This document shows positions 2,279 to 3,598 of a stretch of DNA of 51,808 bases, one piece after another. Source of the stretch: Calidithermus chliarophilus DSM 9957 (lineage in GTDB: Bacteria > Deinococcota > Deinococci > Deinococcales > Thermaceae); NCBI RefSeq assembly GCF_000430045.1, contig NZ_KE387027.1, positions 667,050 through 718,857 of the forward strand. Reading direction: 5' to 3'. Within the stretch, counting starts at the first letter, position 1; every line of letters begins with the position of its first letter. A program made the translations under genes and the position numbers. Under the pieces are notes generated by a model. The model had not been told where the DNA came from. It made no database searches and saw nothing but the letters and a program-made list of their open reading frames with translations.

Positions 2279-2306
2279 TTGAATTCCCCGGCGCTTCCGG
2301 TACACT
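2279..2306 (+). promoter_or_regulatory. Promoter of the deoxyhypusine-synthase-like gene
   Basis: TTGAAT (2279-2284) and TACACT (2301-2306) are separated by 16 bp, a reasonable sigma-70 promoter. Transcription would start near 2313 and give a leader of about 175 nt, which is exceptional in a window where most visible promoters are leaderless. Confidence 0.55.
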
Positions 2307-2312
2307 TTCACA

Positions 2313-2489
2313 CTGATGCCCACGCGGGCAGGGGCGCTAGGCCTGAAGCCGAAGGGGGGAGCCCACAGCGTTCGCCCACCCCGCGAGCTGAACCTCAGCT
2401 TGGGCCGTGCGGGAGCTTCGCCTGAGACGATCTCATTCTCCACGCACAATGCGGGTGCAAGCTGAGACCTCGAGCCGAAGGAGGATTTC
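2313..2489 (+). promoter_or_regulatory. Candidate structured 5' leader (cis-regulatory RNA)
   Basis: The leader holds several short stems: TGCCC/GGGCA (2317-2330), CCCGC/GCGGG (2380-2384 with 2409-2413) enclosing AGCTGA-ACC-TCAGCT (2386-2400), TGAGA-CGA-TCTCA (2423-2435) and CGCA/TGCG (2443-2453). CTCAGCTTG (2394-2402) is also a perfect 9-nt complement of CAAGCTGAG (2458-2466), so it could leave the local hairpin and pair downstream. CCTC (2468-2471) can pair with GAGG of the ribosome binding site (2481-2484). These competing pairings are riboswitch-like. It matches no riboswitch class I can recognise. Confidence 0.4.
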
Positions 2490-3467
2490 ATGTCTCGTGG
2501 AGCAGTGAGCCAGTTCATCAAGCACCACTTCCGCCACTTCAACGCCGCCGCCCTCGTGGACGCCGCCGAGGGCTACAAGCGCCACCTCGACAACGGCGGG
2601 GCCATGATGATCACCCTGGCGGGGGCCATGAGCACCGCCGAGCTGGGCATCTCCCTGGCCGAGATGATCCGCCGGGACAAGGTGCAGGCCATCTCCTGCA
2701 CCGGGGCCAACCTCGAGGAAGACCTCTTCAACCTCGTCGCCCACGACCACTACGAGCGCGTGCCCCACTGGCGCGACCTCACCCCCCAGGACGAGCAGGA
2801 CCTGCTCGAGCGCCACATGAACCGCGTCACCGACACCTGCATCCCCGAGATGGAGGCCATGCGGCGGCTCGAGGGCGCCCTCATCGACGAGTGGACCGCC
2901 GCCGACAAGGCGGGCGAGCGCTACTTCCCCCACGAGTTCCTGTACCGCATCATCCGTTCGGGGAAGCTCGAGCAGTACTACCAGATCGACCCCAAGGACT
3001 CCTGGGTGGTCGCGGCCGCCGAGAAGAACCTGCCCATCTTCGTCCCCGGCTGGGAGGACAGCACCACCGGCAACATGTACGCCGGCCACTGCCTCGCGGG
3101 CGAGATCAAGAACGTGCACACCGTTAGAGGCGGCATCGAGTACATGATGGTGCTGGCCGACTGGTACGTGGAGACCTCCAAGAGCCACTCCATCGGCTTC
3201 TTCCAGATCGGCGGCGGGATCGCGGGCGACTTCCCCATCTGCGTGGTGCCCATGCTGCACCAGGACATGCGCCGCCCCGACATCCCGGTGTGGGGCTACT
3301 TCTGCCAGATCTCCGACTCCACCACCAGCTACGGCTCCTACTCCGGCGCCGTGCCCAACGAGAAGATCACCTGGGGCAAGCTGGCCGTGGACACGCCTAA
3401 GTACATCATCGAGTCGGACGCGTCCATCGTGGCGCCGCTGGTTTTCGCCGTCGTGCTGGATTGCTGA
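2490..3467 (+). CDS. Deoxyhypusine synthase-like protein
   Basis: A 325-residue cytoplasmic NAD-dependent enzyme of the deoxyhypusine synthase fold. In eukaryotes and archaea this family moves the aminobutyl group of spermidine to eIF5A; bacteria lack that substrate, and bacterial relatives include homospermidine-forming and unassigned enzymes. Visible are the NAD-site stretch SCTGANLEEDLFN near residues 70-85 and the C-terminal GSYSGAVPNEKITWGK, whose Lys297 aligns with catalytic Lys329 of the human enzyme; His257 is placed like human His288. By ungapped alignment human Asp316, a spermidine ligand, is Tyr here. The start has an ideal GGAGG ribosome binding site. A role in the polyamine metabolism of a thermophile is plausible but unproven. 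Confidence 0.75.
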   Translation: MSRGAVSQFIKHHFRHFNAAALVDAAEGYKRHLDNGGAMMITLAGAMSTAELGISLAEMIRRDKVQAISCTGANLEEDLFNLVAHDHYERVPHWRDLTPQDEQDLLERHMNRVTDTCIPEMEAMRRLEGALIDEWTAADKAGERYFPHEFLYRIIRSGKLEQYYQIDPKDSWVVAAAEKNLPIFVPGWEDSTTGNMYAGHCLAGEIKNVHTVRGGIEYMMVLADWYVETSKSHSIGFFQIGGGIAGDFPICVVPMLHQDMRRPDIPVWGYFCQISDSTTSYGSYSGAVPNEKITWGKLAVDTPKYIIESDASIVAPLVFAVVLDC

Positions 3468-3477
3468 GAAGGACTGC

Positions 3478-3598
3478 GGAACGTCGAACGTCCAACGCCG
3501 AACGCCAGGGGCAAAACGCTAAACGCAAAACGCAAAACGCCGGTAGCTATCGGCTATCGGCACTCCCGTAGGGGCGCACTGTGGTGCGCCCTGGTCCT
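3478..3598. repeat. Composite heptad element, palindromic core type 2
   Basis: Twelve 7-bp units run without a break from 3478 to 3561 (pattern NNAACGC turning into TATCGGC). They are followed by the palindrome GGGCGCAC-TGTG-GTGCGCCC at 3572-3591, which ends eight bases before the galK stop codon. It lies between the convergent deoxyhypusine-synthase-like gene and galK, so the hairpin may also end both transcripts. Confidence 0.85.

Follow-up and report, generated by a model that had tools for sequence, protein, structure and literature searches.

RNAs that sense polyamines have long been proposed, but to our knowledge convincing cases are few. Among other riboswitches, preQ1 and SAM-II control translation at the ribosome binding site and have a short core beside the Shine-Dalgarno (SD) sequence. 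The spermidine riboswitch is a variant of SAM-I with a four-stem fold, for which transcription termination has been shown and of which 13 examples are known (PMC10853860). On the enzyme side, PMC10981699 describes CdmS (TTHA1570) as the caldomycin synthase of Thermus thermophilus, which converts two agmatines to caldomycin, toward homospermidine.

The window analysed here is a stretch of 51,808 nucleotides from Calidithermus chliarophilus DSM 9957, in which, as a sequence-only reading had noted, a leader of ~175 nt precedes a gene of the deoxyhypusine synthase (DHS) family. That reading was also right to regard the leader as undescribed: it matches no Rfam 15 family at the gathering threshold, a relaxed search of the window returned chance matches only, no account of it was found in the literature searched, and it is absent from the results of PMC10981699 in the portions drawn on here. 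Like the spermidine riboswitch, it is a 5′ leader RNA that would tune a polyamine-related gene, but it differs in its short core, which adjoins the SD sequence in the genera with CdmS, and in occurring only in Thermaceae; SAM-I had no Rfam match in the leader at either the gathering or the relaxed threshold, and thus no four-stem aptamer of that kind was recognised. With preQ1 and SAM-II it shares a short conserved core by the SD sequence and the possibility of mutually exclusive pairings, but in the CdmS genera the SD partner lies inside the coding sequence, and Rfam 15 offers no match. The CdmS-type genes of Thermaceae have the leader core and the DHS family in common with the window gene, whereas the window enzyme is ~28% identical to theirs and falls below the NCBIfam cut-off.

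We propose that the conserved core (Table 1) is a Thermaceae-specific cis-regulatory RNA that controls translation of the single DHS-family enzyme, probably as a riboswitch-like sensor, and from the sequence comparisons below we put the probability of this reading at roughly 0.55. This leader most likely controls translation in a riboswitch-like manner and serves homospermidine synthesis.

Table 1. Features of the leader and its gene, with positions in the window, and loci of a second leader element in other genomes.
Feature	Position	Strand	Evidence
Promoter-like site, TTGAAT 2279-2284, 16-nt gap, TACACT 2301-2306	2279..2306	+	read directly
GGCG 2333-2336 and small hairpin P1 (GGC 2340-2342 / GCC 2348-2350)	2333..2350	+	alignments
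Conserved core, GGGGGGAGCC-N-UUCGCCCACCCCGCGAG, ~34 nt	2354..2387	+	pattern matches, covariance model, alignment
Proposed hairpin P2, 2354-2357/2379-2382, 2358-2359/2376-2377, 2361-2362/2374-2375; bulged A2360, A2378	within 2354..2387	+	alignment
Possible alternative hairpin H, UUCGC 2371-2375 with GCGAG 2383-2387, loop CCACCCC	2371..2387	+	aligned rows
Genome-specific insert, ~83 nt, single copy, CGAG on both flanks, carries the 9-nt pairing	2388..2470	+	absent from L112
Possible start-site hairpin, CGAG 2471-2474/CUCG 2494-2497 and GAA 2477-2479/UUC 2487-2489	2471..2497	+	homologous pairing in L112, L114, L085
SD GGAGG in the loop of the possible start-site hairpin	2480-2484	+	
DHS-family gene, 325 aa, uncharacterised subfamily	2490..3467	+	PF01916 1.6e-38
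Element 2 loci, L153, L154, L156, L190, L191, L193-L198	upstream of cdmS-type genes, families f2 and f3		

Comparison across genomes establishes both the conservation of the core and its association with one gene. In 42 of 50 Thermaceae genomes the strict pattern GGGGAGCCN{2,30}CGCCCACCCCGCG matches exactly once, each time in front of a DHS-family gene, and it has no match in 61 other Deinococcota genomes; a reversed-pattern control also gave none, with ~0.3 expected by chance. Eight Thermaceae genomes are without a strict match. In one of these (G033) the contig is broken, and all seven readable leaders of the others have either a variant core (AGUC in L083, L084 and L158, UUCGUUCACCCC in L085, GUUGGCCCACCCC in L096) or a recognisable divergent form (L097, L098). 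A covariance model of the core finds one strong match in each genome and no second copy that convinces; six weaker matches that were inspected as possible second copies fell inside coding regions or in front of unrelated genes and were judged to be chance. The model gives the divergent L097 and L098 low scores (E 0.004 and 0.08), and 2347-2387 of the window, itself a member of the training set, scores 45.1 bits. The sequence-only reading had staked its proposal on conservation of the leader in Thermaceae relatives; the leader is indeed conserved there, and the conserved part is this core, which that reading had overlooked. A leader core conserved in many species is one of the features by which riboswitches are recognised.

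This core stands before two types of enzyme. The window type occurs in genera g1, g3 and g4 and the CdmS type in g5 and g2 (probably Thermus and a close sister), and the two DHS-family types are ~28% identical. The window protein lies below the cut-off of each NCBIfam equivalog compared, namely CdmS (NF002699, 89.4 vs 500 bits), the SpeY-type homospermidine protein (NF001980, 107.6 vs 450 bits) and DHS (TIGR00321, 82.8 vs 304 bits). The DHS family is represented by one gene in every Thermaceae genome, apart from a split gene in G070. Both types have orthologues outside Thermaceae at 64-81% identity, all without the core, and no core was found in the distant phyla that carry the window-type gene. 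The same downstream neighbour lies behind the window-type gene in two g4 genomes and behind CdmS in one g5 genome. On the simplest reading, the coding sequence was replaced behind a retained leader; that the leader outlived such a replacement makes autoregulation by the enzyme less likely and points to a signal from elsewhere, more probably a shared metabolite or a separate, general factor. Association with one metabolic function, independent of the orthology of the enzyme, is again a riboswitch-like feature, and the shared leader predicts that the uncharacterised DHS subfamily of the window feeds the same homospermidine route. As to the genes themselves, the split cdmS-type gene (L145, G070:C231:1218-2098) is interrupted by an in-frame TAG in a genome that is 65% complete and may reflect a sequencing error; the shared neighbour (downstream in L083 and L126) has a VLEIGAFTG motif and is methyltransferase-like by eye, and Pfam gave only TPR matches around threshold.

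In the CdmS genera, the core directly adjoins a helix of 12-13 bp that would bury the SD sequence and whose partner is codons 6-10. The stretch GCGUAGAAAGGAG, immediately 3′ of the core, pairs with CUCCUCUCUACGC in these codons at 12 of 13 positions, and in the leaders of CUUCUUUCUACGC form (L135, L152) GCGUGGAAAGGAG pairs at 13 of 13, wobbles included. The helix reaches 12-13 of 13 pairs in 26 of 28 leaders, with a shuffle chance of <=2e-4 in the two tested. In 27 genes, 215 sites are conserved at the amino-acid level; the codon is invariant at 125 of them, and only one of these 125 codons ends in A or U: the UCU of the helix, a codon that makes up 4-6% of serine codons in sampled g5 regions. 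Measured against a synonymous-codon null, the cost of opening the site falls in the top 0.5-5% in four of five representatives and in the top 10% in the fifth. The helix of the CdmS-gene leader is predicted to be closed at 37 and at 65 °C, the energies at 65 °C being extrapolated. Owing to the pairing, the codon invariance and the opening cost, we regard the predicted sequestration of the SD sequence in g5 and g2 as well supported.

For the window's own branch (g1, g3, g4), the comparison is suggestive of a start-site hairpin. AUGUCUCG opens all eight window-type MSR genes and is still kept in L085 and L114, although these carry a 13-residue N-terminal extension of different sequence; among 41 invariant codons in MSR-type genes, no other ends in U. 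The CUCG of this hairpin is able to pair with the CGAG that ends the core, the form in L114 and L085 being GCGAG-c-CAUA/UAUG-u-CUCGC, and in the window a second CGAG beside the SD sequence (2471-2474) could replace the core-terminal one in the pairing. Sequestration of the SD sequence was not significant against the synonymous-codon null in g1 and g4.

The hairpin proposed within the core, P2 (GGGGGG-A-GC...GC-CC-A-CCCC), is consistent with the alignment but not proven. Across the aligned leaders 96.6% of its cells are paired; none of its eight pairs has a two-sided change, the core being too invariant for this test to decide, and L097 and L098 depart strongly from it. Hairpin H takes the form (N)ACGC/GCGU in the CdmS genera, a U-A to A-U exchange and a single compensatory change between genera, which argues weakly for H as an alternative pairing; its predicted probability in folding is low, and for the CdmS genera folding gives no sign that it competes. 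By eye, an H-type pseudoknot of GGCG/CGCC and GGGG/CCCC is possible; it shares the L097 and L098 changes with the nested alternative, and L096 misfits. On the 5′ side of the core, P1 keeps its position in relatives with variable sequence, Thermus-like genera having CCUGCC/GGCAGG instead. Two other mechanisms were considered and rejected: attenuation by an upstream open reading frame, as the L126-type leader has no upstream start codon, and an intrinsic terminator, as the leader lacks a U-run.

We infer sensing, a riboswitch mechanism and a polyamine ligand from these elements, in a leader whose core hairpin is without covariation. The core would fold as P2, stack on the SD helix and hold it closed (OFF); a signal that altered P2, perhaps by freeing UUCGC/ACGC to pair with GCGAG/GCGU, would expose the site (ON). 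The putative signal is probably a metabolite of the route from agmatine through caldomycin to homospermidine, or the resulting polyamines. According to PMC10981699, a cdmS knockout of Thermus thermophilus exists and the polyamine chemistry of this organism is known, so that the hypothesis is directly testable there.

The stems from which the sequence-only reading had assembled its riboswitch are a different matter. The complementary stretches do exist, CTCAGCTTG at 2394-2402 with CAAGCTGAG at 2458-2466 and CCTC at 2468-2471 with GAGG at 2481-2484. The 9-nt pairing is nevertheless at chance level, a perfect inverted repeat of at least 9 nt arising in 10% of shuffles, and is confined to this genome, as is the stretch that forms the second pairing; the whole leader folds no better than its dinucleotide shuffles (z = -0.11; 94 of 200 at least as good). 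Both pairings fall within or at the edge of the insert, which carries the first and most of the second. The leader of the closest relative (L082/L112; same genus, protein 94% identical) is ~107 nt long and is without ~2388-2470, and a search with DNA 2389-2472 recovered a single full-length copy in the genome it comes from and none in the 49 other Thermaceae genomes; the only match elsewhere was a partial one of 19 nt. The unusual length of the window leader is therefore largely due to the insert, which displaces the core to ~100 nt from the start codon. Since they belong to a private insert and are absent from relatives, where the sequence-only reading had itself expected to find them, we reject these stems and consider a riboswitch built on them scarcely credible. 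What survives of that proposal is that a polyamine-linked gene is preceded by a regulatory leader which is conserved in Thermaceae and plausibly acts at the ribosome binding site.

The insert has a near-terminal 9-nt inverted repeat, and unrelated hairpins occupy its place, between core and SD sequence, in L083, L084 and L124. An origin as a mobile repeat, favoured by the CGAG flanks and the near-terminal inverted repeats, was set aside when no second full-length copy was found. At the other end of the leader, the TACACT of the promoter-like site fits TANACT, and a TANACT-type -10 lies upstream of nearly all the leaders of relatives; a strict sigma-70 scan missed the site in the window.

Conservation of the core could also have causes other than an RNA sensor. 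A dedicated RNA-binding repressor or activator that responds to polyamine status might recognise the core, the RNA itself then not being the sensor, and a core that hardly varies, shows little covariation and occurs once in each genome is what one would expect of a protein-binding site no less than of an aptamer. We nonetheless think such a protein unlikely, if still a serious contender: no candidate is known, the enzyme itself is an improbable binder because two ~28% identical enzymes have a common site, and a regulatory protein for one gene would be costly to maintain across all genera. Less probable again is a device without an aptamer, either a plain RNA thermometer or an SD hairpin rich in G and C that the abundant long polyamines stabilise non-specifically. 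The helix that buries the SD sequence in the CdmS genera would suit such a device, as would the more than 20 unusual polyamines of Thermus thermophilus described in PMC10981699, but the invariant core upstream of the helix would then be superfluous. The same source reports more homospermidine at lower growth temperature, whereas expression induced by melting should give less, and a helix that is predicted closed at 65 °C does not favour a thermometer.

We give very little weight to a transcription factor that binds a DNA operator just 3′ of the promoter. The halves of the core do form an imperfect inverted repeat near the promoter, but their spacing varies from 5 to 11 nt, as expected of an RNA and not of an operator; the distance from promoter to core also ranges from ~20 to ~90 nt, and in the CdmS genera the core adjoins a conserved helix of the mRNA.

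A more specific form of the riboswitch-like reading, which we advance tentatively and at less than even odds, holds that the core defines a new class of riboswitch that responds to agmatine, caldomycin or homospermidine and was retained when the enzyme under its control was replaced; a second, unrelated element would serve the same function for CdmS genes in other Deinococcota families. This element 2 is a different leader, found at the likely transcription start before CdmS genes of families f2 and f3. It has the form GGAGC-N-CC-GAUG-GCG-[hairpin]-CGU-A-GGGCUCC, often followed by CCGUGG, which is complementary to CCACGG at the start of the element. Its covariation is significant (99% paired, two pairs with two-sided change, a score reached by none of 500 shuffles). 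The model built on it has one convincing match in each of 11 genomes, upstream of a CdmS-type gene in all 10 whose positions were compared, and five loci tested had no Rfam match at E <= 1. Element 2 and the Thermaceae core are thus both conserved leaders before CdmS-type genes, but they differ in sequence and fold, and their models match different genomes.

Two minor observations concern neighbouring sequences. In genus g18, a possible degenerate element 2 (CGUAAGGCUCC) lies before cdmS in L157 and L192. In the window, the spacers around the locus (957-1012 and 3480-3560) contain short repeated runs, of the GGCTATCGAC/AGCTATCGGC type and of the AACGC(A/T)AAACGC type.
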